From Faecalibacterium langellae (GTDB lineage: Bacteria; Bacillota; Clostridia; Oscillospirales; Ruminococcaceae): a stretch of 64,000 bases of DNA. The stretch lies in NCBI RefSeq assembly GCF_002549775.1, contig NZ_NMTR01000002.1, positions 1 through 64,000 on the forward strand. Reading direction: 5' to 3'. The notes under the pieces were generated by a model, which made no database searches, had not been told where the DNA came from, and saw nothing but the letters and a program-made list of their open reading frames with translations. Each line of letters starts with the position of its first letter. The first letter of the stretch is position 1. Of the stretch, positions 10,662-36,606 are shown in pieces. The translations under genes were made by a program, and so were the position numbers.

Positions 10662-10742
10662 TCAGCCGAACAGACCGCTCAGCAGGGGCACCAGAGTGAT
10701 ACCGATGAGTGCAACGCCGCCGCCAGCCATGAGCTGTTTTAT
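10662..10742 (-). pseudogene. Maff2 protein, copy 2, C-terminal fragment
   Basis: Encodes KQLMAGGGVALIGITLVPLL then SGLFG and stop, the C-terminal half of the 71-aa Maff2 family, a small two-helix membrane protein of the ICE mating module. The reading frame is cut at 10743 by element A. Its N-terminus is at 30450-30570 and 12 bases of its middle lie at 21305-21316. The three pieces join in frame to a full protein. Confidence 0.85.
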
Positions 10743-10745
10743 CCC
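10725..10745. repeat. imperfect direct repeat flanking element A (left copy)
   Basis: AGCCATGAGCTGTTTTATCCC at the left junction resembles AGCCATGAACTGCTTCATGC plus CC at 21284-21305 on the right. Both read as Maff2 (G-[IM]-K-Q-[LF]-M-A) on the minus strand, so the attachment site of the element itself seems to carry maff2-like sequence. Confidence 0.65.
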
Positions 10746-10835
10746 CAATTAGGTGTAAAACTCTGCTCGATGGCGGGCGGCGGCGTACAAAAAATCTATA
10801 TGGTGTTGTTAAGAGAACCGTCCCGGCGGGACAGG

Positions 10836-12506
10836 TCAGGCAGTGACCTGTTCCACCTCCGGGATGGGTTTGAGATTAAAATGAATTTCGATAGAAATGT
10901 GTCTTGTTTTATCTTCGTCAATGCGCTCATGCACGACGATTTCTTTGATTAAGCGGTTGAGGGTGGCTGCGTCCAGCTCTGTGATGTTGGCGTATTCCTG
11001 AATGGCTTCCACCCATTGTTTTGCGTCATTGGCAAGCTGGACTTCATCGGACAGCCGCTTTCTGCCCTCGGACACTTTTGCTTTAAGCTCCGTCTGCTCG
11101 GTCTGTGTCTTTTCCAGCATGGTGTTGAAATTCTGCTCACTGATACGCCCTGCAATCATATCCTCATAAAGCCGCATGACCATTTTGTCCAGAACCTCAA
11201 TCCGTTCCTCGTCCCTTGTAAGGGAGCGTTCCATTGCTTCCCGCTGTTCCCGCTGCTCGGCTTCACAGGTATTGGTCAGGCGGTCAGCAACCGCTTCCCC
11301 GTCCATCAGGGCAGCTCTGGCACATTCCCGGATTTTCCGCAGCACATGGCTGTAAAGGGTGTCATAGTCAATCCGGTGCTGGGTGCAGTGGTTCTTTCCA
11401 AAGGCATTGTAGGTCTTGCAGGAATAAATCTGCTGGGGATGTTTTGCGTTTGTGTAGCGTACCGTCAGCGACTTCCCACACTCGCCGCATTTTATCAGTC
11501 CGGCAAACAGGCTGATTTCATTGGTCTGCCCCGGACGCTGGCGGGATTTCAGCTTATTCTGCACAATGTCAAAGCTCATGCGGTCAATCAGCGGTTCATG
11601 CTGCCCCTCCACCACAATCCAGTCCTCCGGCTTCTTTTCCCCAATCGTGCCGATTTTGAAACGGTAGTCCTTTTTCTGGGAAGCAATCGCCCCGGTGTAG
11701 ACGGGATTCATCAAAAGGTCTTTGATAACGGAGAAGTCCCACATATACCGCCCGTTTTCCGGGTCTTTCTTTTCCCATTTGGTGCGGATATTGCGAAGCC
11801 CCCGTTCCCGGTTCCACCATGTGGGGCAGGGGATTTTTTCTTCCTCCAGCCGTCTGCGGATATAGTTCGGACCATGACCGTTCAGGGCATATCCGAAAAT
11901 CAGCCGCACAATCGGGGCGGTTTCCTCGTCAATGAGCAGATGGTTTTTGTCCTCCGGGTCTTTCCGATACCCAAACGGGGCAAGACACCCGGTAAACTGT
12001 CCTTTCTGTGCTTTCAGAAGATAAGAGGAATGGACTTTCTTGGAAATATCCTTACTGTACATCTCGTTCAGGATATTCTTGAACGGGGCAATATCGTTGT
12101 TATCACGCAGGGTGTCGATACCGTCATTCATGGCGATATAGCGGACACCGTTTCTTGGGAAAAAGTCCTCAATCAAATGCCCGGTTTGCAGATAGTTCCG
12201 CCCCAGTCGGCTGAGGTCTTTCGTGATGACAAGGTTGATTTGCCTGCGCTCAATGGCTCTCAACATTCTCTGTAAATCAGGACGCTCCATATTAAGACCT
12301 GTGAAACCATCGTCCTGATAGACTGCCACAACCTCCCATCCCTGCTTTTCGCAGTATTTTTCCAGCATATCCCGCTGGTTGGCGATACTGGCACTTTCGC
12401 CTTGCAGGTCATCGTCCTTTGACAGCCTGCAATAGACCGCTGCACGATAGCCCCCGGCAAGTGCCGAACCGATTGTTCTGTATTCCATTTCGTTCATCAT
12501 AGCCAT
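10836..12506 (-). CDS. large serine recombinase of element A
   Basis: A 556-aa site-specific recombinase. The N-terminal resolvase domain (about residues 20-165) has the catalytic Ser in VYCRLSKDD (Ser29) and the [13 protein letters not shown] block; then a recombinase domain, a zinc ribbon (CGECGK...SCKTYNAFGKNHC, about 338-383), a long coiled coil, and a C-terminal IVVHERIDEDKTR block of the DUF4368 type. It lies about 90 bp from the left end, as is usual for TnpX/TndX-like transposases, and presumably excises and inserts element A at maff2. Its ATG directly follows the stop of the preceding small gene. Confidence 0.93.
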   Translation of the reverse strand: MAMMNEMEYRTIGSALAGGYRAAVYCRLSKDDDLQGESASIANQRDMLEKYCEKQGWEVVAVYQDDGFTGLNMERPDLQRMLRAIERRQINLVITKDLSRLGRNYLQTGHLIEDFFPRNGVRYIAMNDGIDTLRDNNDIAPFKNILNEMYSKDISKKVHSSYLLKAQKGQFTGCLAPFGYRKDPEDKNHLLIDEETAPIVRLIFGYALNGHGPNYIRRRLEEEKIPCPTWWNRERGLRNIRTKWEKKDPENGRYMWDFSVIKDLLMNPVYTGAIASQKKDYRFKIGTIGEKKPEDWIVVEGQHEPLIDRMSFDIVQNKLKSRQRPGQTNEISLFAGLIKCGECGKSLTVRYTNAKHPQQIYSCKTYNAFGKNHCTQHRIDYDTLYSHVLRKIRECARAALMDGEAVADRLTNTCEAEQREQREAMERSLTRDEERIEVLDKMVMRLYEDMIAGRISEQNFNTMLEKTQTEQTELKAKVSEGRKRLSDEVQLANDAKQWVEAIQEYANITELDAATLNRLIKEIVVHERIDEDKTRHISIEIHFNLKPIPEVEQVTA

Positions 12507-12704
12507 TTACCCACACAATCCAGACGGTATCTGGCTCTTTTGAACCTCATCTTCATTATAGCTCATATCTTTCCTTTTAGCAAGATATTCTTTCGTATTT
12601 GTCTTACCGTATTTCTGGGAAATCAGGCTGACGAACACATCGGTTGCGTCCAGCTCCCCGTCAAACACCGTTGTAACATGAATCTCTGTTTTGTTTTTTG
12701 CCAT
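12507..12704 (-). CDS. small protein upstream of recombinase A (candidate directionality factor)
   Basis: A 65-aa protein (MAKNKTEIHVTTVFDGELDATDVFVSLISQKYG...), with GGAGG before the ATG. Its core, V..V.[EF]F.G...A.D.F..LI, resembles the 55-aa protein in the same place in element E2 (43994-44161). Both end immediately or closely before a recombinase gene, so a role in controlling the recombinase is plausible but unproven. No known domain recognised. Confidence 0.65.
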   Translation of the reverse strand: MAKNKTEIHVTTVFDGELDATDVFVSLISQKYGKTNTKEYLAKRKDMSYNEDEVQKSQIPSGLCG

Positions 12705-12748
12705 AGGCAGTTATCCTCCATACATGAAAATAGCCAGACAGAGGGTGT

Positions 12749-12950
12749 CGGCAACGAAGTCCGGCAACGGGCTTCAAAAGACCTTGCAAACAATCTCAAT
12801 CTGGCGATGGTTACTATTTATACTTTTCTTTTATTTTTCTGTTGTTTTGGTTGTTATAAGGGAGAAAAGCCCGGAAATAAGGGGTTTTCCCGGGCTAATG
12901 CCCTGCAACCGGCTCGGCAACGGGATAGCAACAGGGGGTGCAACGGGCGG
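12749..12950. repeat. GGCAAC repeat cluster (candidate iterons/origin) in element A
   Basis: The 250-bp gap between the virE-like gene and the small gene holds GGCAACGAAGTCCGGCAAC (12750-12768) and, after an AT-rich stretch rich in T runs, CGGCAACGGGATAGCAACAG and two more GCAAC copies (12905-12943). A hairpin CCCGG...CCGGG lies between. Element E2 has the same 19-bp core at 44203-44221. Short repeats flanking AT-rich DNA beside primase and helicase genes look like a replication origin. Confidence 0.5.
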
Positions 12951-12956
12951 TCATTT

Positions 12957-14351
12957 TCAGAATGGAAGCTCCATCTGTTCTGTGACCTCCACAAAACCAT
13001 CCATCGTTTTTTCAGACGGGTTGCCGGAGTCCGTTGCCGGGTTTTCACGCTCCCAGCCCTTTTGTCTGCCATATTTGGAAAACATTCTTGGGTTCGGGAA
13101 GTACCGCCAGCCGGTAATGCACTGGTTCATAATCTCGTTGATTTCCCGGATTTCCCATTGCTTCGGCTCGTCAAAGGTATGGTTCAAGGCTTCCTTGTAA
13201 AGCTGCTTGGAACAGACCATGCTCCCGGTGTACTTATCAAGATACGCCTGTATCATTCCGGCTTTGGTGTCCTCCGGCATAAAATCCCGCTGGTGTTCTT
13301 TGAGATACCGTTGCATGGTGGGGCTGAAAGCCAGCTTGAACCTGCCGCTTCGGTAAATCTCCATAGCTTCTGCCCACATCTGCTCGATATAGGCTCTGGA
13401 AGCAGCTTCGTCCTCCAAAATGTGAACCTCGGCTTGCTCCGGGTACACCATGACGGGGATAAAGCGGCGGTTGCCGGAACGGTCAAGGGGCAGGAAGTCA
13501 AGGGCATTGGAAGTGCCGCCAAACACGCACTGACGGGGGCGGTCTGCCGGGTGGGTTTCATAGGGTATCTTGTAAACTTCTTTCTGCCGGCTTAAAAATG
13601 ACTTGATTTCCTCAATGCTCTTGGCGTTGGCGGTTGCCATCATTTCCGACATTTCGATAATCCAGTGACCTTGCAGCTTGCGGTACACATTGTCATCGTC
13701 CAGCTTCCGCAAATCATCGGAGAACCACTCGTCCCGGACTGCCAGCAGACGGAAGAAGGTGGACTTGCCAGCCCCCTGACCGCCTACCAGACAGAGCATG
13801 ATTTCAAACTTACACCCCGGCTGAAAGGCTCGTGAGATTGCACCCAGCAGGAACAGCTTCAACGCTTCATAGGTGTAATCGTCTGCGTCAGCCCCCAGAA
13901 AGTGCCGCAGACAGAAACGGATTCGTTCTGTCCCGTCCCACACAAGGGCACTTAGGTAGTCCCGGATGGGATGGTACTTGTTTTCATTCGCCACAATCCC
14001 GATGGCGTTATCAATCTTTTTCTCATTGGTAAGCCCGTAGGTTTCTTCCAGATAGAGAAGCAGATACTTCATGTCCGTATCGTTCAGGGCGGTGCTTTCT
14101 CTGTGGAAGCCGATGGGCTTTATGATGTCCTTGCGGTCAGTTAGGATGTTGTATGCGATAGCCCCGGAAAGCAGAGGGTCACGCTGGAATACGGTCAGGC
14201 AGTTCCGGATGCTCTGACGGACACCGCCTTTCTCGGTGGTTTCCAGCCCCGCCTTGATTTCCTCAATGCTCTGGGGCGGCTGCATGGCGTTCATGGTGTT
14301 TTTTAGTTCTTGCTGCGTCTGCGGCTGCAAGCTCTGCCATTCGCTGTTCAA
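12957..14351 (-). CDS. VirE/VapE-family P-loop helicase-like replication protein
   Basis: A 464-aa protein with the virulence-associated E domain: Walker A GGQGAGKS (190-197), Walker B-like WIIEMSEM, and the conserved FGGTSNALDFLPLDRSGNRRF block. Such proteins act as superfamily 3-like helicases with CHC2 primases in plasmid and phage satellites. The start is a TTG 89 bp inside the primase gene, so the two are translationally coupled. The homologue in E2 (44417-45823) is about two-thirds identical by eye. Confidence 0.85.
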   Translation of the reverse strand: MNSEWQSLQPQTQQELKNTMNAMQPPQSIEEIKAGLETTEKGGVRQSIRNCLTVFQRDPLLSGAIAYNILTDRKDIIKPIGFHRESTALNDTDMKYLLLYLEETYGLTNEKKIDNAIGIVANENKYHPIRDYLSALVWDGTERIRFCLRHFLGADADDYTYEALKLFLLGAISRAFQPGCKFEIMLCLVGGQGAGKSTFFRLLAVRDEWFSDDLRKLDDDNVYRKLQGHWIIEMSEMMATANAKSIEEIKSFLSRQKEVYKIPYETHPADRPRQCVFGGTSNALDFLPLDRSGNRRFIPVMVYPEQAEVHILEDEAASRAYIEQMWAEAMEIYRSGRFKLAFSPTMQRYLKEHQRDFMPEDTKAGMIQAYLDKYTGSMVCSKQLYKEALNHTFDEPKQWEIREINEIMNQCITGWRYFPNPRMFSKYGRQKGWERENPATDSGNPSEKTMDGFVEVTEQMELPF

Positions 14352-14907
14352 GCTGTATCACATCCTTTCCGTAGTCCGTAATCAAAGCCGCTTTTTCCTC
14401 TGTCTCCCCGAACAGCAGCACATCCAGCAGATATTCCACTTGGTCTTGCTTCTGTAAGGCTTCCACAAACCGGGGATGAAAGGCTTCCTCCGGGGAGTGC
14501 GGGGCGTAGTCCGTTCTCCATGCCATAAGCAAGTGAAGATAATCGGTAAGAATACGGAAGCAACGGTTTTTTGCTTCCTGAAACTGTTCCTCCGGGGATT
14601 TCTGCCGGGGCTTGGGCTTTTTTGCCTTTCCCGGCGGTTTCCAGTCCTCATAGGAAAGCCCGAAGTCCTGTGCCAGCTGTACGGCGGCTTCTTTCTTTCC
14701 CAGCCCATACAGGGCGGCGGCAAAATCAATCACATCCCCATCCGCACCGCAGCCGAAGCAGTGGTAACGCCGATCCAGCTTCATGCTTGGGGTTTTATCG
14801 TTATGGAACGGGCAGCAAGCCATCCCGTTCCGACCTACATGGATTCCATAATGCTCCGCAGCCTGTCTTGTTGTGACGGACTGCTTCACAGCTTCAAATA
14901 CATTCAA
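14263..14907 (-). CDS. CHC2 zinc-finger DNA primase-like protein
   Basis: A 214-aa protein. The N-terminal zinc finger (CCPFHNDKTPSMKLD then YHCFGCGADGDVIDF, about residues 31-63) is that of DnaG-type primases; the TOPRIM catalytic domain is absent, as in other mobile-element primase-helicase pairs. The start is TTG with AAGGAGG seven bases upstream. It probably works with the overlapping VirE-like protein in replication of the excised element. Confidence 0.85.
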   Translation of the reverse strand: MNVFEAVKQSVTTRQAAEHYGIHVGRNGMACCPFHNDKTPSMKLDRRYHCFGCGADGDVIDFAAALYGLGKKEAAVQLAQDFGLSYEDWKPPGKAKKPKPRQKSPEEQFQEAKNRCFRILTDYLHLLMAWRTDYAPHSPEEAFHPRFVEALQKQDQVEYLLDVLLFGETEEKAALITDYGKDVIQLEQRMAELAAADAARTKKHHERHAAAPEH

Positions 14908-14972
14908 ATCTATCCCTCCTTGAAAATAAGAAAAGCACCTGACATTCTCTGATTGAAAATGGCAAGTGCCTG

Positions 14973-16553
14973 TTAAAGTTCCATATCCTGTTGTTTGTGT
15001 TTCGTCTGTGCCGGGACAGTTCTTTGTGCTTTTTTCTCGTCAGCCTTATCCTGCAAGACTTCTTTGATAGGCTGTTTCTTGGGCGGCTCTTTGCTTTCTT
15101 CTGTGCCGGGGGTGGCTTTCCGTACCCAGTAGCGAATGTCCCGCAGCTTCTTCAAATCCTCCTGTACCTCGGTCAGCGGTGTTTTCAGGGCTGCAATTTC
15201 TTCCAGAAGCGTTTCCTGCTCCTCTTGCAGCTCCTTTTGGGTACTGTCCTTATCGTCCGGGTGCTTGGCAAGGTAGGCGGCGGCTTTCGCATACCGGGCA
15301 ACCTCCGGGTGTTCCTGTTTGAATTTCTCCTTTGTTTTCTTGAAAAATATCTTCTGGTACTTCTCATAGACAGGCTTACATTCCTTGCAGTCTGTCCGGC
15401 TGGCAAGAATCCCGTCAATCACTTTGCTGCGGGCTTCCTTTGGCTTCATCTGATTGCGGTAATCTGCGGCTGATTTCTCGGAGGATTCCAGAAATGCTTC
15501 TAAGTCCTCCACAGTGGAAAGCCCCTTTTGCCGGAGATAGGACAGGGCTTCGCTGACTGCCTTTAAGTCCTGTGAAGTCCCCCGGTTCTGTCCAGCCCTT
15601 GTCCAGTCCTTCCGTTCTTCCTTTCGTATCTCCATATACTTCATCAGCAGATTGGGAAGAAGTGTCGCTTCCTCCGCCGCTTTTTGTGCAAGCAGCTCTT
15701 TCCGTTTTTCGCCCAGCTCGGTAATCCAGCCTTTGAGGTTTTGGATGAGCTGACGGATAGACTTCATCAGGCGGTTGGCGGCTCTGATTTCCCGGTTCAG
15801 GTTGCCGATGTTCGTCTGGATACCCCGCTTTTCCATCTGCCGGACAGCAGCTCCCTCATGGACAGTAGGGATAATATCAAGCCCCTGTCTGGCATAAGAA
15901 CGCAAGTCCACTCGCTCCGGGCGGTTATTAGCTTCCAGATAGCGGTTCTGGATAACCTCCCATTCATGCCGCCAGATTTCACAATACTTCTGGTCGTTCC
16001 AGTCAACCGTATCCTCCTTGTGGCTTTTCCACCTGCCGGACGGCAGCTTTATCCGTTCCCCGTTTTCGTCAAGGTCATAAACCTTGCGGCTCTTTGGAAG
16101 CCATTTTCCATGTTCGTCCATTGCCCTCATGGTCAGCAGGACATGGGCGTGGGGGTTGTGTCCCGGCGGATGGGGGTCATGGATGGCAAAGTCAGCAATC
16201 ATGCCTTTGGAAACAAACTGCTGCTGGCAAAACTCCCGGACAAGGACAGCGTACTGGTCGGGTGGTATCTCTCTTGGGATGGTAAGCACCCACCGCCTTG
16301 CAAGCTGGGAGTTCCATTGCTTTTCCACCGCTTCGGCGGCGTTCCATAGGGTATTGCGTTCTGCATATTTCTGTGGGGCATTTGCCGGGAGCAGGATTTC
16401 ATTGTGGACGATACCACGCTTTTCCGGGTAGTGCTTCACTTGCTGGTCGTATTCACAGAACAGCTTTTCACCGCTCTGGTAAGCAGCGGCGGCAACCGCA
16501 GACTGTCGCTGGCTGCGCTGAACAATCGTGATTTCGTTGTGTGGGCAGGGCAT
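14973..16553 (-). CDS. mobA: MobA/MobL (MobQ) family relaxase
   Basis: A 526-aa relaxase. The N-terminus has SAVAAAAYQSGEKL with the likely catalytic Tyr25 and the metal-binding HDPHPPGHNPHAHVLLT motif (His125-137), as in MobA of RSF1010 and TraA of pIP501. The second half is a long coiled coil with an inserted CKECKPVYEKY segment. It would nick oriT and pilot the element through a mating channel supplied by the ICE. A matching nic-like site lies at 17710-17725. Confidence 0.92.
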   Translation of the reverse strand: MPCPHNEITIVQRSQRQSAVAAAAYQSGEKLFCEYDQQVKHYPEKRGIVHNEILLPANAPQKYAERNTLWNAAEAVEKQWNSQLARRWVLTIPREIPPDQYAVLVREFCQQQFVSKGMIADFAIHDPHPPGHNPHAHVLLTMRAMDEHGKWLPKSRKVYDLDENGERIKLPSGRWKSHKEDTVDWNDQKYCEIWRHEWEVIQNRYLEANNRPERVDLRSYARQGLDIIPTVHEGAAVRQMEKRGIQTNIGNLNREIRAANRLMKSIRQLIQNLKGWITELGEKRKELLAQKAAEEATLLPNLLMKYMEIRKEERKDWTRAGQNRGTSQDLKAVSEALSYLRQKGLSTVEDLEAFLESSEKSAADYRNQMKPKEARSKVIDGILASRTDCKECKPVYEKYQKIFFKKTKEKFKQEHPEVARYAKAAAYLAKHPDDKDSTQKELQEEQETLLEEIAALKTPLTEVQEDLKKLRDIRYWVRKATPGTEESKEPPKKQPIKEVLQDKADEKKAQRTVPAQTKHKQQDMEL

Positions 16554-16616
16554 TTCGTGTCCCTCCTTTCGGTAATTGGTGGATGGGGTGGTGCTTTACC
16601 ACCTCATTTTGGGCAG

Positions 16617-16690
16617 AAAAAAAGCAGGAGACCTTTCTCAGATTTCCTGCTCGGTGTGCCGCTGTGTAGGCGGCGGGTATTTAGTTGTAA
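16617..16690 (-). terminator. conserved double-hairpin terminator (element A copy)
   Basis: On the minus strand a GC-rich stem (CCGCC...GCGGC) is followed by GCAGGAAATC...TCTCCTGC and seven T residues. Elements Y (27622-27692) and X (34513-34584) have nearly the same block, each just after the last gene of the preceding minus-strand operon and before the mobilization genes. Confidence 0.65.
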
Positions 16691-16736
16691 AAGTTCGGGA
16701 CAAGTTGACCCGATGGGTAGATGGTACACTTAAAAA

Positions 16737-17141
16737 TTATGGTTCTCTTGTCATTAGCTCATTAGCATAATGATTAAGAGCTTCACAAGGTTCATATTTG
16801 CATTTATAACCAATACCGTCAATTATAATAAATGGATTGTATGCTATAATCTCCACTTGAGAACCATCTGCCAAAGACAGAGTGAAAATAACTGCTTGTC
16901 CGGCATATTCTGTATATGAGTTGTCCTTATTATAAATAACTACTTCATTGAGATATGATGCCAATTCCTCTGTTTCTGATATTTGTATTGTTGTATCAGG
17001 AGGCGATAAGCGAACATTTGCCGAAGTAATGTCTTCTGCTGTTAAATTTTTGAATGGTCTATGACCAGAGAACAAGAGAACGCTAATACCTATGCCGATT
17101 AGACATATCAGAGCAATTAACAAAATCTTTTTATGCTTCAT
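16737..17141 (-). CDS. membrane-anchored hypothetical protein
   Basis: A 134-aa protein with one N-terminal transmembrane helix (KKILLIALICLIGIGISVLLF) and an extracellular domain ending with GIGYKCKYEPCEALNHYANEL. No lipobox is visible. The ATG at 17141 follows AAGGAG at good spacing. AT-rich compared with neighbours, so it is probably later-acquired cargo of element A together with the CPCC protein. Function unknown. Confidence 0.7.
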   Translation of the reverse strand: MKHKKILLIALICLIGIGISVLLFSGHRPFKNLTAEDITSANVRLSPPDTTIQISETEELASYLNEVVIYNKDNSYTEYAGQAVIFTLSLADGSQVEIIAYNPFIIIDGIGYKCKYEPCEALNHYANELMTREP

Positions 17142-17164
17142 TTGATTCTCTCCTTTACACATTA

Positions 17165-17419
17165 CTATAAAGTTTTCTTTTCATCATTTCTTGGTGGTCG
17201 GACATGACATAACATTTCTTTTTCACAAGCACCAAATTTTGAGAAATTGAATTTCGCTTCTTTTAGTGTTATTCCATGATTAGAGTCGCTTGGTTCGTTA
17301 TCAGAAGCAATAAACGGGTCATTCTCCCAAAAACAAACGGGGCAGATATACCCACAATCTTCATTTGCCGGAACATTGTAGGTAAAATATCCGCAGCAAG
17401 GACATTGGTATTTTTTCAT
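17165..17419 (-). CDS. CPCC-family cysteine-rich protein
   Basis: An 84-aa protein starting MKKYQCPCCGYFTYN, with a second CPVCFWEND pair, so Cys-x2-Cys motifs form a rubredoxin-like zinc site. The motif CPCC...C..CPVC.WE.D is diagnostic of the CPCC family, of unknown function and common in cargo regions. It lies 23 bp upstream of the membrane protein gene and is probably co-transcribed. Confidence 0.8.
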   Translation of the reverse strand: MKKYQCPCCGYFTYNVPANEDCGYICPVCFWENDPFIASDNEPSDSNHGITLKEAKFNFSKFGACEKEMLCHVRPPRNDEKKTL

Positions 17420-17690
17420 ATAAACCTCCCGTTTAAGCCTTGACCTCAAATTCCTGATTTATTACTGACTTCATTATACTTTATTGCTTATCGAAAAGAT
17501 AGCATATTTTATGAAACTTGTCGGCTGGGAACAGCTTGCAACGCAAGGTGTCCCCAGATGGCAAGTCCACAAAAGGGTAGCTGGCGGCAGCCAGCGCAGG
17601 GGAAGCGTAGCGTCTCCTGTATGATTTGGAGCAGACCATGACTGCGGAAAATCACAGCCCTCCGGCGAGGAGCCTTCGGAGAACGCAATG
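17420..17690. other. non-coding stretch before candidate oriT of element A
   Basis: About 270 bp without a convincing gene. It includes an AT-rich promoter-like part (17455-17515) for the CPCC operon on the minus strand and a GC-rich part with short inverted motifs such as GCTGGCGGCAGCCAGC (17581-17596) leading into the oriT candidate. Confidence 0.5.
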
Positions 17691-17725
17691 CACCAACCTT
17701 TGGGTGGTGTATAATTGCGCCCTTA
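17691..17725 (+). other. oriT: candidate MobQ-type oriT of element A
   Basis: An inverted repeat CACCAACC-TTT-GGGTGGTG (one mismatch, 17691-17709) is followed at once by TATAATTGCGCCCTTA (17710-17725). MobQ nic sites (RSF1010, pIP501) have the same design: an inverted repeat, then [A]TAAGTGCGCCCT. The relaxase gene of this element is of the same class and lies about 1.1 kb away. Confidence 0.65.
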
Positions 17726-17730
17726 GTAAA

Positions 17731-18027
17731 CTAAGGGGTTTCCGGCTTCTCCCGTTCCAGCAGTTTTTTCAATAGTTCCTGCGTGTCCTGCCTGTGAAAA
17801 ATGAGTTTCAACAACAGCATGACATCATCATCTGTCAGGCGTTCCGGCTCTTGCAGAAAACTTTCCAGCATACCGCCACGAGTACAGAGCCGGTGCGTCC
17901 GTTCCTTTCGGGTAAGCTGCTTTAACTGGTGCTGCAATGCCTTTTCATCATTGATGGCTTTCCGCAGTTTCTTTTCGCTTTTCTCCAACTCCCGATTGAG
18001 TTTTTCCAGCTTTGAGGTATCAGGCAA
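17731..18027 (-). CDS. DUF3847 family protein
   Basis: A 98-aa charged coiled-coil protein with the signature RKERTHRLCTRGGMLESFL, which defines DUF3847. Common in mobilizable elements near relaxases; function unknown. It ends directly beside the oriT candidate and overlaps the next upstream gene by 8 bp. Confidence 0.85.
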   Translation of the reverse strand: MPDTSKLEKLNRELEKSEKKLRKAINDEKALQHQLKQLTRKERTHRLCTRGGMLESFLQEPERLTDDDVMLLLKLIFHRQDTQELLKKLLEREKPETP

Positions 18028-18361
18028 GGGCAGCGTCCTCCTTTCCCGGTATCAGCACATAAATCCTGTTTGGTTCTCCAACGCCCTGACGCACCCGCAT
18101 GATAAGTCCGGCGTTTTCCAGTTCATTCAAAGAACGCTTGACCGTCATAGAGCTGCGGGACAGGACTGCGGCAATGGCTGTGACAGGGAAGCAGACAAAC
18201 AGGATTCCGTTCTCGTCCTCCTGCCCATTGGAGAGCATAGCGTCCAACATCCGGCAGTACATGACCTTTGCGGTGCTGCTGACTGGAAACCCTGTCAACG
18301 CTCTTGGAAAAGCCATACAGGGCGGCAATGGTGTGTCTATCGTCATAAATTCAAAATTCAT
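18020..18361 (-). CDS. replication-initiator-like winged-helix protein (RepA N-terminal type)
   Basis: A 113-aa protein (MNFEFMTIDTPLPPCMAFPRAL...). The segment AKVMYCRMLDAMLSNG and the winged-helix part SRSSMTVKRSLNELENAGLIMRVRQGVGEPNRIYV match the DNA-binding N-terminus of RepA-type initiators, without the C-terminal half. It could bind the element's origin or regulate it. Overlaps both neighbours by a few bases, forming a tight operon. Confidence 0.7.
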   Translation of the reverse strand: MNFEFMTIDTPLPPCMAFPRALTGFPVSSTAKVMYCRMLDAMLSNGQEDENGILFVCFPVTAIAAVLSRSSMTVKRSLNELENAGLIMRVRQGVGEPNRIYVLIPGKEDAALA

Positions 18362-19836: not shown

Positions 19837-19837
19837 A

Positions 19838-28974: not shown

Positions 28975-29679
28975 TCACGGCAATTCACTCTCATTGATAG
29001 GAATTGCCTCAAGTTCCGTATTCAAATTGTTCCAATAAGAGCCGATATCCGCACTTGTGAAATACTTAAAACCGCCTGCTGCTGACTTCAATTCGCCGTT
29101 TTTAACCCCATAGCAGGCGTAAATCAAATCGTAGCTTGTTCCATCTGAGAGGTTAAATCTAAAGCTGGTCACATCTGCTCCGGCAGTTTCCTCAGTCGTT
29201 TTGTCTTTTAGGGATAAGCCCTTGAACTTATCATACAGGGTCTTTATATCATTTTCAGCAACAACTACTTTCTTTTCTGCTGATGCAGGCACTCCGTCAT
29301 AGTGGTACATTTCAACGTTTTCGACATCTTCAACCTCAAATGGGAAGTCGATTTTGACAGGCTCATAAGCAATGTTTATAGGTAACAGAAAGAGAGCTGT
29401 AAAAATTGCAATGATACAAAGAGCGATGGAAACGAGAACAGCAATCGTTATCTTTTTTCTGCCTCTCTGCTTTTCTTTTGCCTCATGGCGCATAATAACG
29501 CTTTCGCTTTCTTCGTGAAGAACATCTTCGCTCGTGTGAGAAAGCAATTTCTGATAAATTGCGTTACAGTCAGCACAGGCGTTCAAATGCTCTTTTACCA
29601 TCTCTGCGCTTGCTTCGCTGCAAGCATCGTCAACATACAGCGGAAGAATATCTCGAACAATATCGCATTGTTTACTCAT
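28975..29679 (-). CDS. zinc-finger anti-sigma factor (membrane)
   Basis: A 234-aa protein. The N-terminal zf-HC2 domain (H-L-N-A-CADC, motif VKEHLNACADC about residues 29-39) binds an ECF sigma; then one transmembrane helix (ITIAVLVSIALCIIAIFTALFLL) and an extracellular sensor domain. It overlaps the sigma gene by 8 bp, a classical sigma/anti-sigma pair. The signal sensed is unknown. Confidence 0.85.
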   Translation of the reverse strand: MSKQCDIVRDILPLYVDDACSEASAEMVKEHLNACADCNAIYQKLLSHTSEDVLHEESESVIMRHEAKEKQRGRKKITIAVLVSIALCIIAIFTALFLLPINIAYEPVKIDFPFEVEDVENVEMYHYDGVPASAEKKVVVAENDIKTLYDKFKGLSLKDKTTEETAGADVTSFRFNLSDGTSYDLIYACYGVKNGELKSAAGGFKYFTSADIGSYWNNLNTELEAIPINESELP

Positions 29680-30157
29680 GCTTTTCATCCATCCTTTCTT
29701 GAATTTTTAGCTTTGCACGATGATAAGTAACTCTCGCCCATGATTCTGTTTTTCCAAAAATTGCAGCGATTTGTGAAAAAGATAGTTCCCCGAATACGCG
29801 AAGCTGAAAGACTTCTTTGTATGGTTCTTCCAAACGGTGAAGAACGAGGTGTATGCGGAACGCCATGTCAGAATCTGCAACTGAGTTCTCAACATTTTCA
29901 TTTGATGGCAAGTCATTGATTTCACTCACATCAGCTACTCGCTGACGGCTTCGCATTTCATCATGGTAAAGATTTTTTGCTATGGAGCAGAGCCATGTCA
30001 ATTCATCTGACTTACCTTTGAATTGTGATGTTGTAGAAACAGCCTTATAGAATGTGTTCTGCGTGATTTCCTCTGCTATCTCACGATTTTTGGCAAGAGA
30101 AATAGTATACGAGTATACCTGTAAATAGTAGGCTTTATAGAGTTTTTCATAGTCCAT
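29672..30157 (-). CDS. ECF-type RNA polymerase sigma factor
   Basis: A 161-aa sigma-70 factor: region 2 (LYKAYYLQVYSYTISLAKNREIAEEITQNTFYKA...TWLCSIAKNLYHDEMR) and region 4 (EVFQLRVFGELSFSQIAAIFGKTESWARVTYHRAK). The start at 30157 (MDYEKLYKAYY) is chosen from homology and a GGAGG 11 bases upstream; ATG codons slightly upstream are possible. With the anti-sigma it forms cargo at the right end of Y, unlike anything in X. Confidence 0.88.
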   Translation of the reverse strand: MDYEKLYKAYYLQVYSYTISLAKNREIAEEITQNTFYKAVSTTSQFKGKSDELTWLCSIAKNLYHDEMRSRQRVADVSEINDLPSNENVENSVADSDMAFRIHLVLHRLEEPYKEVFQLRVFGELSFSQIAAIFGKTESWARVTYHRAKLKIQERMDEKHE

Positions 30158-30448
30158 ACTTGTCATCACCTCCTTCAGCTTCATAGGTTAGACGGAGAAA
30201 TCGGAATTTCGTTACAAAGAAGTTTGAAATTTTTATACCTTTACGCTACTCTTGCTTTGTGCGGACTATTGGTAGACGCGCATTAACGGCAAGTAAAGAG
30301 ATTGCTGTGTCAGCTTGATATGTTCAAATGCTAATTAAGTATAGCATACAGCTATGAATTTTTCTATTGCGTTCCCCTGACTTCGGAATAGTGGCAGGGC
30401 TGGCTATCCTTGTTTTGCTTTGTGCTTCTCTACCGTACATGAGCATTG
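30158..30448. other. right end of element Y, no gene seen
   Basis: About 290 bp of AT-rich DNA. It presumably holds the promoter of the sigma operon and the right recombination end, which reads CTTCTCTACCGTACATGAGC (30425-30444) followed by ATTGG. X ends with CTTCTTTACCGCACATGAGC at 36461-36480. Confidence 0.6.
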
Positions 30449-30449
30449 G

Positions 30450-30570
30450 CAGAGGGGTTATCACCGCCGTAACCTTCCATGAGGTTCACAGCACCCCACA
30501 CGCCCAGACCGGCACCCAGTGCCACGACCAGAGTCTTCAGAACGTCAACTGCACTGTTAAAGAATTCCAT
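30450..30570 (-). pseudogene. Maff2 protein, copy 2, N-terminal fragment
   Basis: Encodes MEFFNSAVDVLKTLVVALGA then GLGVWGAVNLMEGYGGDNPS and is cut after NPS-A by the right end of element Y, running into a short foreign tail. The start at 30570 has AAGGAG upstream. The rest of the gene lies at 21305-21316 and 10662-10742. Confidence 0.85.
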
Positions 30571-30706: not shown

Positions 30707-30800
30707 TTAGCCGAACAGACCGGACAGCAGGGGCACCAGAGTGATACCGATCAGGGCAACGCCACCGCCAGCTATCAGCTGCTTCATACCCTGACTTTTT
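30707..30800 (-). pseudogene. Maff2 protein, copy 1, C-terminal fragment
   Basis: Encodes AKSQGMKQLIAGGGVALIGI then TLVPLLSGLFG and stop, C-terminal part of the first Maff2 copy, cut by element X at 30801. Partner fragment: 36487-36606. The two join to an intact 71-aa frame. Confidence 0.85.
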
Positions 30801-30889
30801 GCTTATGTGTGATAAAGAAGTAATAGAAGCGTAAAAAATTTTGCCGTTCCTATCCGGCACTTAGCTCTTGTGTCGGATAGGTCGGGCGG

Positions 30890-31680
30890 TTATTCGGGCA
30901 AGTCCACCTTGCCAACAAAAGAATAATAAATCTCAATGTCCTGTCTGCGGGTCTTGTTCTCGTCATAGCTACACTCATGCACAACGATTTTCTCTACAAA
31001 CTCCCGCAGCAGAGTAGGGGTAAGTTCTTCAAAGCTGGTATGCCGCCGGACAACATTCATAAACTTTTCTGCGTTCACGGTAGCTTCCTGTGCTTTGGAA
31101 AGCTCCGCTTGGATAGCGGCGGCTCTTTCTTTCAGTTCCCGTTGCTCTGCTTCATAGTCTGCCGACAGTTCTGTGAAACGCTCGTCTGATATGCGCCCGG
31201 TCACACTGTCCTCATACAGCCGCTTGAAGATAGCAGATAACTCGGCTATGCGTTTCTCGGCGGCTTCCAGCTCCTTTTTCTTGGCGGCGTTCCTGCGCTT
31301 GCCCCCGTCCTCGTTCTGCTCAATCAAGAGCTTCATAAACCGGGCTTCATGCTTTGCCGCATAGCTGGTCACTTTCCGCAGATTGGAGAGTACACCAGCG
31401 GTCAAAAGGTCGGTGCGGATAAAGTGCGCCGTACAGTCATGGGTGCGTTTCTTGTAGTTGCCGCAGATATAACAGTCCTGCTTGCGCTTGTCCGTCTGCT
31501 TTGATTTTCTTGCTCGTATCTCTCACCAGCCATTCGTTAAAGATATTCCGCAGCGGGGCAAAGTCATTGTCGCCCTGTGCGCTGTCCACTCCATCATTGA
31601 TAGCGATGAAGCGGACACCTTTCTGTGGGAAAATCATTTCCGTGTACATTCCCACTTGCAGGTAGTTTCGCCCTATCCTC
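30890..31680 (-). pseudogene. serine recombinase remnant of element X
   Basis: The C-terminal 171 residues (from [14 protein letters not shown]-type sequence) match the Y recombinase closely. Upstream, a piece from [12 protein letters not shown] to DTSKKIKA is joined out of frame to the [10 protein letters not shown] zinc-ribbon region, an internal deletion of about 190 codons. The catalytic N-terminus with the active-site Ser is missing, replaced by the end of the four-Cys gene. It cannot be active. Confidence 0.9.
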
Positions 31681-31869
31681 CTTTTTCCGGCGTTTGGAGT
31701 AGTAGCGGGGGCAGAGTATGATAACCGCCCGGAAGCTCTGCTTGCAGCTATGGGTACAGCCCCGGCAGAGGTCGTTGTATGTGATACGGTCGCAGGTGGT
31801 ATTCCCGACTTTCACTTGCCGCAGGAAAAAAGACCATTCCAGCCGCCGTTTCTTGCTCATTCTTGGCAT
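31594..31869 (-). pseudogene. four-cysteine protein of element X fused to recombinase remnant
   Basis: Starts MPRMSKKRRLEWSFFLRQ and keeps LCRGCTHSCKQSFR and ILCPRYYSKR, as in A and Y, with an eleven-residue insertion after the first 17 residues. After RRKKED it runs into recombinase DNA in another frame. The fusion marks the left edge of a deletion that removed dnaC, the replisome organizer and the recombinase N-terminus. Confidence 0.75.
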
Positions 31870-32054
31870 GGGTGCGCTCCTTTCTGCCGTTTCCGCTGGT
31901 ATGACGGTATCGGCGGTAATTCTGTATCATCTCGGTATCATTTTCGGGGGTTTTCTGCCCTGTAAGCCCGTTAAAAAATCCTTTAGTATTGCGGATAGGG
32001 TACGGGGCAGCCCCCTTGTTCTGTATGGGTTCGGGTACATTTTGGGGGCGGTTT

Positions 32055-33686
32055 TTATCGCTCCTGTTCCTGCCTTTTCACAGGCTTGCGCTCCCGGCGT
32101 AAAATCTGGTCGATATTGCCCTTGACAGTCTGTAAGCGGCGGTATTCCTCCCGTTTTGCCCGGTAATCGTTGTAGCCGCTGTTTTTCTCTTTGATAAGGC
32201 TTTCAATCTCTGCTTGCAGGGATTTATAGCTCGGCAGCTTGGAAATGCCGTTCTCTCTGAAATAACGGGCGGCTGCGTCTGCTATGGTAAAGTCGCTTTC
32301 GTGCTTCTGACGGTAGGCTGCTTTTGCTTTGGCGTTTTTCTGCTGTTTCAGCCCGTCCCGGACAGGGCGGGTCTTGGAATAGGCAAGCACCTGCCGTTGC
32401 AGCTCCTTTTTCCCGTTTAGCGTCTTTTCCACCTGCTTTAGCTCTGCAAGGCTTTCCTGCATGGCGGTATAAGTGGCAGAACAGGCTTCGTCCAGTTCCT
32501 CCGGGGAAGAAAATCCATACTGCTGATAGGCGGTAACGGTAGCTGCCATTTGCTTTAGGTTGTGCTTTGCCGCCCAGCGGTCATAGCCCACGCCCTTTCC
32601 CTCGGCTCGCTTTGCTTCCCGGTCAACCATGCGCTGCAAGGTGTTGTCTGCCGGGGTGGTTTTTGTGGCTTTTTCCTCCCGCAAGCGTCCCTTTTGGGTG
32701 TGGGGGTATTCCGGTATGGCTTTGCTCTGTTCGGCGGCTCTGTGGGCGTTCTGCGTGAGCAGGGCAAGGACAGCAGCCTTGTCAAAATCGTCCCCCAGCT
32801 TCCGGGCTGTGATAGGCTTTGTCCTGTCCGGCGTGAGGTAGGAAAGCCGCCCCCGGCTCTCCTTGACGGTCACACCCTCCCGCAGCAAAAGGGAAGAAAA
32901 CTCGTCAAAGCTGGTAGCTTGGGAAAGTGCCTGCCGTATCGTCCGGCGCAGCTTCGCCTTGTCCGTTTCAAACTTGGTGGGCTTGGTTGGCTGTCCGGCG
33001 GCTTCTCTGGCGGCGTTCTCTTTATCAAGGGCAAGCTGCCCTTTCTTTGCCGCCCAGTATTCCCGTTCCGTTATCCGTTCCTTGCTGCCGTTCAAAAGGT
33101 CGATTTGGTAAAGCCCCTCCCGGTGGCACATCTCCATGACTTCACTCTTGAAATATTCCATAGCGGCGTTGGTGCAGCGGTGCTTGCAGCCCTCCCGTGT
33201 ATCGGCTGGTCTGTCCATGTAGGGCAGAAGCGGGACTTCGTAAATCCGCAGGGAGTTGATGACGATATGCACATGGATATTGCCGCTGTGGTTATGCCCG
33301 TCCGGGTGGGTGCATACAAGGGCTTGGTGTCCGGGGAAATGCTCTTTACAGAACTGCTCGCCCAGCTTCTGCGCCCGGTCTGTGGTCAAGCCGTTGTCTG
33401 TCCCGTCCCGTGGGTCAAAGCTGATGATATAGTGGTGGCTTTTCACATCTTCCCGTTTTTGGTTTTTCTCATAGCGGAGATTGGCTCGCATACAGGCAAC
33501 AGCAAAATCTTCCTCGCCGCAGTTCAGCGTGGCTATCCGATAATCCTCCCGGAGTATGAGCCGCCCGGTTTCGTCAAGGGTGGGCTTCATGGTAAACTCG
33601 TCATGCTCAAATGTGAGGTAGGCTTCCGCTGCGCCATAGTCGGCATTTTTAGAGCTGATATGTTTGAATGTTGCCAACAGCGTCAC
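32055..33686 (-). CDS. MobP-type relaxase of element X
   Basis: A 543-aa relaxase, close homologue of 25285-26913. GTG start by alignment with Y. It has the same VKSHHYIISFDPRD and HPDGHNHSGNIHVHIVIN motifs and an intact length, so X may still be mobilizable although it lacks a recombinase. Overlaps mobC by 38 bp, as in Y. Confidence 0.92.
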   Translation of the reverse strand: MTLLATFKHISSKNADYGAAEAYLTFEHDEFTMKPTLDETGRLILREDYRIATLNCGEEDFAVACMRANLRYEKNQKREDVKSHHYIISFDPRDGTDNGLTTDRAQKLGEQFCKEHFPGHQALVCTHPDGHNHSGNIHVHIVINSLRIYEVPLLPYMDRPADTREGCKHRCTNAAMEYFKSEVMEMCHREGLYQIDLLNGSKERITEREYWAAKKGQLALDKENAAREAAGQPTKPTKFETDKAKLRRTIRQALSQATSFDEFSSLLLREGVTVKESRGRLSYLTPDRTKPITARKLGDDFDKAAVLALLTQNAHRAAEQSKAIPEYPHTQKGRLREEKATKTTPADNTLQRMVDREAKRAEGKGVGYDRWAAKHNLKQMAATVTAYQQYGFSSPEELDEACSATYTAMQESLAELKQVEKTLNGKKELQRQVLAYSKTRPVRDGLKQQKNAKAKAAYRQKHESDFTIADAAARYFRENGISKLPSYKSLQAEIESLIKEKNSGYNDYRAKREEYRRLQTVKGNIDQILRRERKPVKRQEQER

Positions 33687-34056
33687 CCACTTTCTGCAAG
33701 ACTTCAAACTTTAGGGCAGCAAGGTCGGAAACCGCCGCCCGTATTTCCCCGACAAGCTGCGGATAGGGAGTGTGCCACTCGTTCAGCGTCCGGGCTATCT
33801 GGTTTAAGTTGCCGCCGATCCTGCCGTATTCGGCGGTCAGCTTCCCGACAGTGGCAAGCAGCTCGTCATTGACGGGGGAAACAGTTATGATGGGGCGTAT
33901 GGCTGCCCCGGTTATGGCTTGCCGGATAAACTCGGCTTGGCTCATGTCATAGTGTTTCAGCCGCTCGGTGAAGTCGGCATATTCTTCTTCGGTCATGCGT
34001 GTCTTGACTACATGGCTTCGGTGGGGCGTATTGTATCGCTTTCCTATGGGTATCAA
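33649..34056 (-). CDS. mobC: MobC-type mobilization accessory protein of element X
   Basis: A 135-aa protein with RMTEEEYADFTERLKHYDMSQAEFIRQAI and IGGNLNQIARTLNEW, the same MobC family as in Y. ATG start with AAAGGAG upstream. Works with the downstream relaxase. Confidence 0.9.
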   Translation of the reverse strand: MIPIGKRYNTPHRSHVVKTRMTEEEYADFTERLKHYDMSQAEFIRQAITGAAIRPIITVSPVNDELLATVGKLTAEYGRIGGNLNQIARTLNEWHTPYPQLVGEIRAAVSDLAALKFEVLQKVGDAVGNIQTYQL

Positions 34057-34134
34057 CTCCTTTCACTTACCGCCGTTTTGTGGGCGATTTTTTAAGTATT
34101 TTTGGTGGGATTTTCAAGCGGCACAAGCCGCATA

Positions 34135-34233
34135 GCAGGGTTTGGGGAAGGCACTCCCCAACAAGATTTACCAAAGGGGCAAAACCGCAGATATGCGGAT
34201 TTTGGCACCGTGGTAGAATCTTGCTCTAAGAAA
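34135..34233. other. oriT: candidate oriT of element X
   Basis: Nearly identical to 27311-27410: stem TTGGGGA-AGGCAC-TCCCCAA (34142-34161), then CAAG and the palindrome CCGCAGATATGCGG. Sequence to the right (34240-34510) is much less conserved and shows no gene. Confidence 0.7.
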
Positions 34234-34239
34234 CTGCCG

Positions 34240-34512
34240 GACTGCCGTTCACTTGCTACTGCCACTTTTTCGGGAAATCTATAACCAGCTTTTTTATAAA
34301 AGGCTGCGGGCGGCGTTCTCCCCTTACTCCCTACAACACCGCAAAAAGCAAAAATGACGGACTTTCCGGCAAGAACTTTTCCTGCGGCGTGGTCTTTCCC
34401 GACAATAAGGCGTTTTGGAAACTGTGTTTTGCTCGCCGTCTGAAAAAAACGGCAATCTTTTTTGGCTTCACTGTCTAATACGGAACATTTGGAAATTTGC
34501 CAAAAATAGGCG
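34240..34512. other. non-coding stretch, nothing recognised
   Basis: About 270 bp between the oriT candidate and the conserved terminator, without a credible gene on either strand. The same slot in Y (27411-27621) is also non-coding. Confidence 0.5.
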
Positions 34513-34584
34513 CAAAAAAAGCAGCAAATCTTTTTCGGATTTACTGCTTCATGTGCCGCTGCGGGGCGGCGGGATATTCAGTTT
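34513..34584 (-). terminator. conserved double-hairpin terminator (element X copy)
   Basis: GC-rich stem followed by GCAGTAAATCC...GATTTGCTGC and seven T on the minus strand, like 16617-16690 and 27622-27692, just after the stop of the HTH gene. Confidence 0.65.
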
Positions 34585-34589
34585 TTATG

Positions 34590-34790
34590 TTATCGGTCAA
34601 GCCGAAACTTGAACAGGCTTTCAATCAGCTTTGTTCTGATGTAGTCCTCCATATCAGAGTTATAATAGCCGTTCATCTTGGAGAAGTAGCGGATATATCC
34701 GGCGTATCGGTCAAGGACAGCTTGTATCGCTATGGGGTCGCCCTCATGTGCCTTTATAATCGTGTCATAGGGGAGAAGTCGGTCACTCAT
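34590..34790 (-). CDS. helix-turn-helix domain protein of element X
   Basis: A 66-aa protein (MSDRLLPYDTIIKAHEGDPIAIQAVLDRYAGYIRYFSKMNG...LFKFRLDR), same family as 28183-28380. Overlaps the sigma-like gene by 8 bp. Confidence 0.82.
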   Translation of the reverse strand: MSDRLLPYDTIIKAHEGDPIAIQAVLDRYAGYIRYFSKMNGYYNSDMEDYIRTKLIESLFKFRLDR

Positions 34791-35226
34791 GGGGCAGCAC
34801 CTCCATTTCCTCTTTCAGCCGCTTCAAGGCAAGCTGGATATGCCGTCCGATTGTGCTGCGTGTCCAGCCGCTTTGTTCTCCGATTTCTTTCTGCGTCAAG
34901 TGCTGGAAGTAATACAAAAAGATTTCCTCCTGCGTCTGTTCCGGAAGTCCGGCAAGAGCCGCCGCAAGGGAGCAGCTATCTAAAAGTATCGTCTGACCTC
35001 GGACAGAAAACGGATATGTTTCGCCATAGTCTGGCACTTGAAAATACTCGTCCGTGGTGCTTAGTGGGACAAACTTTTCCTCGGTCAAATATTCAAGGGA
35101 GATTTCCCGTTTCCACCTCGCTGCCAGCATACGGGCAGCGTCAAAGGACGCATGACGAATAACAATCCGGCAGTAGGTATCATGGGTATAGCGGATATGT
35201 TCTTGATAGGCTTCGTATTCAGTCAT
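34783..35226 (-). CDS. sigma-70-like regulatory protein of element X
   Basis: A 147-aa protein (MTEYEAYQEHIRYTHDTYCR...), with C-terminal HTH EQTQEEIFLYYFQHLTQKEIGEQSGWTRSTIGRHIQ. Homologue of 28358-28816. Pairs with the small HTH protein downstream, as in other conjugative elements. Confidence 0.85.
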   Translation of the reverse strand: MTEYEAYQEHIRYTHDTYCRIVIRHASFDAARMLAARWKREISLEYLTEEKFVPLSTTDEYFQVPDYGETYPFSVRGQTILLDSCSLAAALAGLPEQTQEEIFLYYFQHLTQKEIGEQSGWTRSTIGRHIQLALKRLKEEMEVLPHE

Positions 35227-35383
35227 GTAAAATCCCCCTTTCTTCGATTATGGGAAAGGGCGGCAGCACTTTTTGCTGTCGCCCCTTGATTACCCACCAG
35301 CAAGGACAGTCGGGGCTGTCAACGGTGGGCGTAGCCCATTTACTTGCCGTTGACTGGCTCGGCTGGATTTGCTATTTATATTA

Positions 35384-35968
35384 TCATTCTTGTGTTTTTG
35401 CTTCTTGTCTGTTGTGCATGATTTGTATTTGATATACAAGAACGGGAATCAGAGAAATCAAAGCAAGCACACCAAAAACAATCGAATGATTTATAACTGC
35501 AAATATTGCAAACATAAGCAGTATCAACAACCATGGATTACGCAGATTTCTGTAATAGTTTTCCTTGTCCTCATAGGAAGTATGAAGTTCAAACGGCTTT
35601 CCATCATTCTCTTTTTCTACAATCAACAATTCACGGTTGAAGGTTGTAGTGTTGGTCGCAATGCGTCCGCCTTTTTCAGCCCATGGACGCCAACGCACCT
35701 TACCGACAGAATAGTTAAGATTGATATTTTTGAAAAATACCTTATAGCCCATATCTTCCAAAAAGAGGGAATAGTCTTTTGCATTCTCTTTCGATTTTTC
35801 TCCGATAAATTCTACACAGTATTTTACTTCATTAGGTTTACATTCTTCAAACTCATATAACATTTTCCCCGCTCGAATAAGACGATAGCCCTTCTCCGAC
35901 ATTTTATTCAGCCAATTCGCCTGTGCATTCAACAGACCACCAAAAAAATGATAACATTTTTTTCTCAT
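35384..35968 (-). CDS. DUF2812 domain membrane protein
   Basis: A 194-aa protein. The N-terminal DUF2812 part (AQANWLNKMSEKGYRLIRAGKMLYEFEECKPNEVKY) is followed by two transmembrane helices near the C-terminus (PWLLILLMFAIFAVI and IVFGVLALISLIPVLVY). DUF2812 proteins regularly follow PadR regulators, as here (4-bp overlap). AT-rich cargo. Confidence 0.85.
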   Translation of the reverse strand: MRKKCYHFFGGLLNAQANWLNKMSEKGYRLIRAGKMLYEFEECKPNEVKYCVEFIGEKSKENAKDYSLFLEDMGYKVFFKNINLNYSVGKVRWRPWAEKGGRIATNTTTFNRELLIVEKENDGKPFELHTSYEDKENYYRNLRNPWLLILLMFAIFAVINHSIVFGVLALISLIPVLVYQIQIMHNRQEAKTQE

Positions 35969-36288
35969 ACTGTACCTCCAATAATTCCACTTGCAACCTC
36001 TACAAGTTCATTAAGCCTTACAAGTTCTTTTTTCGCAACTTCTTTTCCCAGTGAGGTAATGATGTATTCTTTTTTTCTACCTTCACAATCTCCGCAAGGC
36101 TTAATCCATTTCTTTTCCTGCAAAGAGTTTAGCGCACCATACAAAGTGCCTGCTCCCAATGAAAGCCGCCCACCTGTTTTTTCTTCGATAAATTGCATGA
36201 CAGCATATCCATGTTTTGGAGCATAGAGAGAAAGTAAAATGTAAAATGTCACTTCTGTAAGCGCACCACCTTTCATATTATCACGCAT
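35965..36288 (-). CDS. PadR family transcriptional regulator
   Basis: A 107-aa winged-helix regulator (LTEVTFYILLSLYAPKHGYAVMQFIEEKTGGRLSLGAGTLYGALNSLQEKKWI...). The GAGTLYGALN.L block is the PadR signature. Start after AAGGAGG. A strong promoter with an overlapping inverted repeat lies just upstream, so autoregulation of the PadR-DUF2812 operon is likely. Confidence 0.92.
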   Translation of the reverse strand: MRDNMKGGALTEVTFYILLSLYAPKHGYAVMQFIEEKTGGRLSLGAGTLYGALNSLQEKKWIKPCGDCEGRKKEYIITSLGKEVAKKELVRLNELVEVASGIIGGTV

Positions 36289-36303
36289 TGTTTATCCTCC
36301 TTG

Positions 36304-36349
36304 TTACGGTTACTGTAATAAATATATCACTAACCGTAATAGAAGTCAA
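36304..36349 (-). promoter_or_regulatory. padR promoter and inverted-repeat operator
   Basis: On the minus strand TTGACT (36344-36349), 17 bases, TATATT (36321-36326). The perfect 9-bp inverted repeat TTACGGTTA (36304-36312) / TAACCGTAA (36331-36339) brackets the -10 box, a fitting PadR operator. Confidence 0.8.
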
Positions 36350-36486
36350 CAGCGTTCAAAGAAATTTGGAAATATGAAAATGAAGCAGCAACATCTTGGT
36401 GTTACTGCTCCATTCTTATACGGTATAGCGGTAGCCTTGGCTGCCTTTGTCTTGTTTTAGCTTCTTTACCGCACATGAGCATTTGC

Positions 36487-36606
36487 GGAGGGGTTATCGC
36501 CGCCGTAACCCTCCATCAGGTTGACGGCACCCCACACGCCCAGACCGGCACCCAATGCCACAACCAGAGTCTTCAGAACGTCCACTGCGCTGTTAAAGAA
36601 TTCCAT
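36487..36606 (-). pseudogene. Maff2 protein, copy 1, N-terminal fragment
   Basis: Encodes MEFFNSAVDVLKTLVVALGA then GLGVWGAVNLMEGYGGDNPS-A and is cut by the right end of element X. It is nearly identical to the copy 2 fragment at 30450-30570, and the DNA upstream of both is alike too, so the gene pair arose by tandem duplication. AAGGAG precedes the start. Confidence 0.85.

Follow-up and report, generated by a model that had tools for sequence, protein, structure and literature searches.

How does a gene of only 71 codons come to hold three inserted elements? The question is raised by a 64,000-nt window of Faecalibacterium langellae (positions 1 to 64,000 of contig NZ_NMTR01000002.1, assembly GCF_002549775.1; "the window" denotes this whole stretch), in which two tandem copies of maff2, a gene thought to serve conjugation, lie on the minus strand directly upstream of a VirB6-like gene, and both copies are interrupted, by three inserts in total (X, Y, and A). 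Pfam searches identified topoisomerase, NlpC/P60, VirB4, VirB6-like, and VirD4 genes in the window, mostly on the minus strand, belonging to an integrative and conjugative element (ICE) that we take to be Tn5252/Tn1549-like; the first-pass annotation spoke of Tn1549-like ICEs. Based on the anatomy of the locus, its exact junctions, the match between recombinase family and site, the occurrence of each insert type alone elsewhere, and the recurrence of the stacked arrangement, all of which were observed directly, we consider it very probable that X, Y, and A are integrative and mobilizable elements (IMEs) that inserted independently into maff2 by means of their own large serine recombinases, at two overlapping targets. 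The pieces of the two genes and the neighboring gene are as follows.

9569 to 10435, minus strand: TrbL/VirB6-like gene of the host ICE, directly downstream of maff2 (Pfam)
10662 to 10736, minus strand: maff2 copy 2, 3′ part with stop, codons 48 to 71 (PF12750 positions 45 to 70)
21296 to 21313, minus strand: 18-bp maff2 remnant, codons 42 to 47, between Y and A (from uncut genes and the same insert ends elsewhere)
30448 to 30570, minus strand: maff2 copy 2, 5′ part, codons 1 to 41 (PF12750 positions 1 to 43)
30707 to 30799, minus strand: maff2 copy 1, 3′ part with stop (PF12750 positions 40 to 70)
36484 to 36606, minus strand: maff2 copy 1, 5′ part, codons 1 to 41, with the core AA of codon 42 at 36482 to 36483 (PF12750 positions 1 to 43 and junction motif)

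The pieces of copy 1, the upstream one (123 and 93 nt, including the stop), and of copy 2, the downstream one (123, 18, and 75 nt, including the stop), all consist of whole codons and amount to 71 codons plus a stop per copy, a sum of coordinates rather than of spliced letters. The cut-off of PF12750 (Maff2) was passed by five pieces in the window, the 18-bp remnant being too short for the profile. A tandem pair with copy 1 cut by X and copy 2 by Y and A, as first annotated, was thus confirmed by profile matches and coordinates, and the two 71-residue frames expected after removal of the inserts agree with the summed lengths. The inserts and their key genes are listed next.

10737 to 21295, minus strand: insert A, 10,559 bp, probable IME at site 2 (codon 48; match in locus L235, ends as in other site-2 elements)
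10836 to 12506, minus strand: large serine recombinase of A, rA (Pfam)
14973 to 16553, minus strand: relaxase of A, MobA/MobL (Pfam; above the NCBIfam MobQ cut-off)
21314 to 30447, minus strand: insert Y, 9,134 bp, probable IME at site 1 (codon 42; 98.5% identical end-to-end match in locus L043)
21404 to 23011, minus strand: large serine recombinase of Y, rY (Pfam)
25285 to 26913, minus strand: relaxase of Y, PF03432 (Pfam)
30800 to 36483, minus strand: insert X, 5,684 bp, probably an IME in decay, at site 1 (ends match those of other site-1 elements; broken recombinase)
30893 to 31679, minus strand: recombinase remnant of X, residues 88 to 148 and 334 to 535 of that of Y, in two frames (tblastn)
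32055 to 33707, minus strand: relaxase of X, PF03432, 74% identical to that of Y (Pfam and comparison)

Y and A each encode a full-length recombinase with Resolvase, Recombinase, Zn ribbon, and DUF4368 domains and a relaxase of their own, of PF03432 in Y and of the MobA/MobL-MobQ type in A. The two recombinases are 35.9% identical, below the 40% level at which recombinases were clustered in PMC5357655. Y also carries IstB-like, replisome organiser, and sigma factor genes, and A carries VapE and TnpV-like genes. X retains its relaxase, NikA, sigma, and PadR genes beside the wrecked recombinase; judged from its sequence, it appears to be an IME remnant whose own functional recombinase is gone. 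The element matching Y in L043, from another genus, lies alone at codon 42 and is alike over its whole length, and A is covered over its whole length at 95.8% identity in L235, which is itself a stack. No mating-pore genes were found among the scanned proteins of Y and A, a subset of the insert open reading frames, and an NCBIfam scan of ten window proteins for resistance cargo gave no match above the curated cut-off except MobQ.

The crossover dinucleotides were placed by comparing uncut maff2 genes with the 5′ and 3′ junctions. At site 1, the 5′ junctions retain gene variation as far as the AA of codon 42, and the 3′ junctions retain it from this AA onward; the same pattern on both sides places the site 2 crossover at the CA of codon 48. 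From the AA to the CA there are 18 nt of gene-derived bases, likewise in the loci with A-type recombinases. The 12-bp spacing between Y and A given in the first-pass annotation therefore has to be corrected to 18 bp of maff2 (21296 to 21313): the string reported there occupies 21305 to 21316, of which 21314 to 21316 are the end of Y, and the remnant continues to 21296. Codon 42 is the site of both X and Y, in different copies, and codon 48 that of A. The earlier statement that two different recombinase types are at work accordingly holds for Y and A, but X is of Y's type, at Y's site in the other copy. Conservation was considered as a basis for target choice and rejected. With a majority identity of 0.906, compared with 0.788 for the gene on average, the 21 nt surrounding site 2 belong to the best conserved parts of maff2, but the corresponding stretch at site 1 is average (0.793), so that conservation alone does not explain both sites.

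We examined how far these junctions recur by searching PF12750 in 297 family-level, 394 order-level, and 391 class-level genomes, samples that overlap; 60, 70, and 53 genomes, respectively, had a match. Among the matches listed, which at the order level were the strongest ones, 105 5′-fragment ends were read, including the window's two (34 + 54 + 17; L282 repeats L118), leaving out two family-search pieces below the cut-off. Codon 42 accounted for 68 of the 105 ends and codon 48 for 19; in ten, the fragment ran into a group II intron that follows codon 38, and in one into a group I intron separating codons 45 and 46. The others comprised a break at codon 23 (L278), a frameshift (L084), three contig ends, and two paralogues with another C-terminus (L272 and L273). 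Hence, 98 of 99 insertion junctions fell at four positions within 30 nt of maff2, rather than at the random positions that the first-pass annotation had named as evidence against its proposal, and the survey of exact codons that it called for shows the codon 42 and 48 sites recurring. Codon-42 and codon-48 junctions with unlike or worn ends (L050, L051, L115, L116, L118, L136, and L267–L271) were placed by position or resemblance. Further codon-42 inserts with different ends were seen in L267–L270 and in L051, where the recombinase is 40% identical to that of Y.

Recombinase type followed the site. A search with rY and rA of 22 loci found a relative in 16, and the type agreed with the site in all 16. 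Nine site-1-only loci carried only Y-type recombinases (85–99.8% identical in seven, 40–43% in L050 and L051), four site-2-only loci only A-type ones (76–86% identical), and the stacks L037, L038, and L121 one of each. No relative of rY or rA was found in the other six of the 22, namely the intron loci L046–L049, L118, and L122 (the other half of L121's stretch).

The group II introns were inserted after the same base in all ten junctions, in several genera (L046–L049, L104, L105, L124, L125, L129, and L130). Nine of them had Rfam matches (RF02004 and RF00029 in L046–L049; L105, L124, L125, L129, and L130), and for L104 the identical 5′ end was the sole basis of assignment. The intron of L105 is reduced to about 0.8 kb. 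The group I intron (RF00028, L056:430–840) scored 64.1 bits, above the gathering score of 50.

Stacks were counted in the best 80 of 342 relatives of the A recombinase, mostly from Clostridia. The maff2 3′ part lay directly behind the A-type recombinase in 64 of these 80 loci, as judged by sequence pattern. A 5′ junction was in range in 49 loci and none was in the other 31. Site 1 was empty in 25 of the 49 and filled in 20; a group II intron end lay upstream in two, and the remaining two were masked (L236) or non-maff2 (L259). Thus, 20 of the 47 readable A-type insertions also held a Y-type element at codon 42. The C-terminus of a Y-type recombinase ended the insert in all 20, although only its last 19–61 residues were in range in nine. 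Since 18 different 18-mers lay between the sites in the 20 stacks, many separate genes must be involved. With the window and the genomes G137, G140, and G793, the stacks number at least 24. This recurrence of the Y–A arrangement in 20 + 3 further loci indicates that it is neither chance nor an assembly chimera, the artifact that the first-pass annotation had named as a possible refutation. No sign of mutual exclusion between the sites was seen at this rate of stacking, in samples with filled and with empty site 2 that differ from each other. In L221 and L227, the 3′ end of a group II intron and an A-type IME share one maff2 copy.

Could Y and A instead be one composite element that moves as a unit? 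Their side-by-side position in all these loci would fit, but each type is also found singly at its site (the 25 A-only loci, and Y in L043), the 18 bp between them are host gene and vary with it, and the site-1 partner differs from stack to stack, its recombinase being 80–95% identical to that of Y. We therefore regard a composite as extremely improbable and favor independent insertion, in which the AA of codon 42 would be the crossover point of Y-type recombinases and the CA of codon 48, 18 bp further on, that of A-type ones. The attB sites at which large serine recombinases integrate are fixed and 35–50 bp long; with centers 18 bp apart, the two targets must overlap. Both are nevertheless filled in the same gene copy, probably one after the other, and stacks would then form wherever both families circulate. 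X would be a defunct sister element of Y, having entered maff2 copy 1 at the site that Y occupies in copy 2. Beyond its crossover, the end of A contains a repeat of a maff2-like stretch, and this may leave site 1 open to insertion once A has landed. The half-sites favored neither order of arrival of Y and A.

Several observations weigh against this interpretation. The maff2 3′ part was missing, by the pattern used, from 16 of the 80 A-recombinase loci. X has no whole recombinase, and the host genome is a draft of 78 contigs. Y and A show the site-specific integration expected of IMEs, except that the left ends of A-type elements lie in non-maff2 sequence at L197:1623 and L259:1101; either the site is not absolute or those loci have been rearranged.

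The tandem arrangement with X is known from this one assembly. The 5′ part of copy 1 and its upstream flank share 97–99% identity with a second ICE in this genome (G000:C22), whereas the flank of copy 2 is closer to another ICE, L229 (92% identical), so that the ICE may be a mosaic. The second ICE (L039, G000:C22:10431–20499) has a different Y-type IME at site 1 of its maff2. The same flank identities would be expected if the assembly had joined two related ICEs of this genome into a chimera. We consider this very unlikely, because close full-length maff2 pairs, about 90–100 bp apart, occur in six other genomes (G236, G137, G382, G546, G604, and G446), X differs from the element in C22 (75.8% identity where alignable), and the Y–A stack is seen again elsewhere. 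The full-length pairs also imply that duplication need not be linked to insertions. According to the first-pass annotation, the second copy may buffer loss of the first. Tandem copies are indeed not rare, and in L281 (G791:C3:295700–296309) the first copy is cut at site 2 and the second is full-length. However, in the window neither copy is whole, and no full-length maff2 was listed within 3 kb of any of the 19 cut genes L037–L055, leaving buffering with only a small probability. A full-length maff2 is present elsewhere in the same genome, on contig C78.

What would the insertions do to the product? PF12750 was matched by all uncut relatives in two sets (18/18 and 28/28). The predicted model of Maff2 is a two-helix hairpin (helices 2–36 and 39–68; mean predicted local distance difference test score 93.2). 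From the junctions, insertion leaves about 46 residues (site 1) or about 52 (site 2), and the truncated protein would, according to the model, lack most of the second helix. No sequence relative of Maff2 was found in the PDB (best E 0.14), and the hairpin model resembles many unrelated hairpins there, with no telling match. PF18895, a VirB2-like pilin family of type IV secretion systems (T4SSs), was weakly matched by 9 of 18 and 11 of 28 relatives (best E 4.3e-5), but other open reading frames genome-wide score equally. In a scan of 20 genomes, two of 43 listed matches were maff2 (G140:C6:1216318 and G145:C1:64027), neither over the cut-off. A VirB2-like pilin was therefore rejected as an assignment and left as a guess. 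Gram-positive T4SSs are described as having no VirB2, except those of Patescibacteria (PMC12102498 and PMC12857230).

In a passage on IMEs in ICEs (PMC5357655, section 25), excision on induction of ICE transfer was proposed. By analogy, the stack might be a selected switch, with the IMEs silencing a conjugation gene until it is needed and then excising. Insertion does cut a conserved gene adjoining the VirB6-like gene, and in both insert ends an in-frame stop follows no more than six codons from the junction. Yet X has no recombinase of its own with which to excise, the switch would take two or three separate excision events, and the decay of X fits simple accumulation, making a switch unlikely. 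Under independent insertion, Y and A may nevertheless still excise, and the cut maff2 would presumably block conjugation until the IMEs leave.

The hot spot itself, with neighboring fixed sites for two recombinase families, was correctly anticipated by the first-pass annotation and is already published. Streptococcal ICEs have two maff2 sites for two serine-integrase families (PMC5357655 and PMC5704250), and 116 of 256 IME_Rho_tet sites in gut bacteria lie in maff2 (PMC12904643). The closest parallels are IME_ScoC232_maff2_site1 and IMESp2907 (maff2 site S2) of streptococci, likewise of two serine-integrase families at two sites within maff2 of Tn5252-superfamily ICEs; the relevant portions of PMC5704250 and PMC5357655 mention no stack in one copy. 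ICESp2905 likewise holds two IMEs in conserved ICE genes including maff2 (PMC5357655 and PMC5704250). IME_Sco1050_traG_site1 and _site2 form another pair of IMEs at separate sites within a single ICE gene, but their target is traG, not maff2 (PMC5704250). IME_Rho_tet is also a serine-recombinase IME, whose commonest reported gut target is maff2; unlike the window elements it carries tetracycline resistance, and the likeness is one of target and type (PMC12904643). A group II intron gene has been placed close to a PrgI gene in Faecalibacterium, though not in maff2 in the portion concerned (PMC9674144), and the passages of PMC6907783 consulted gave nothing on maff2. Among open-licence full texts, no paper was found on stacking in one maff2 copy or on introns in maff2. 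As far as the literature searched shows, four points are new: the placement of the insertion sites to the base, how often they are stacked, introns occurring at this spot, and the presence of four elements in a single ICE.

The fourth element, T, lies in traG/VirD4 of the same ICE.

36987 to 50130, strand not given: fourth element T, with an adjoining 2-bp core (alignment of an uncut traG)
42270 to 43922, strand not given: serine recombinase of T

The uncut traG in L002 aligns to 50131–50705 and 36600–36986, with an overlap of 2 bp. The T recombinase is 34–37% identical to rY and rA. One ICE thus carries four serine-recombinase inserts (T, X, Y, and A), compared with the one to three IMEs per ICE mentioned in PMC5704250. 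T also carries VapE, two-component system, and MacB/FtsX-type ATP-binding cassette (ABC) genes; the latter two groups (37136–42173) possibly represent a peptide transporter.

Taken together, the hot spot was known before, and the stack that it carries here is genuine and recurs elsewhere. We see about an even chance that four kinds of insertion, namely two IME families, group II introns, and a group I intron, some of which share one copy, have a common landing area in a 30-nt stretch of maff2 (codons 38–48, where the hairpin turns and its second helix begins); the introns would spare the product by splicing, the IMEs would switch maff2 off until they leave, and the product may be a pilin-like subunit of the Gram-positive mating pore. 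The known hot spot becomes a base-resolved map, with overlapping targets 18 bp apart that would be filled independently, plus two intron classes. This opens to testing how ICE parasites share or compete for one target, how far overlapping attB sites tolerate a filled neighbor, and whether stacks disable ICE transfer.

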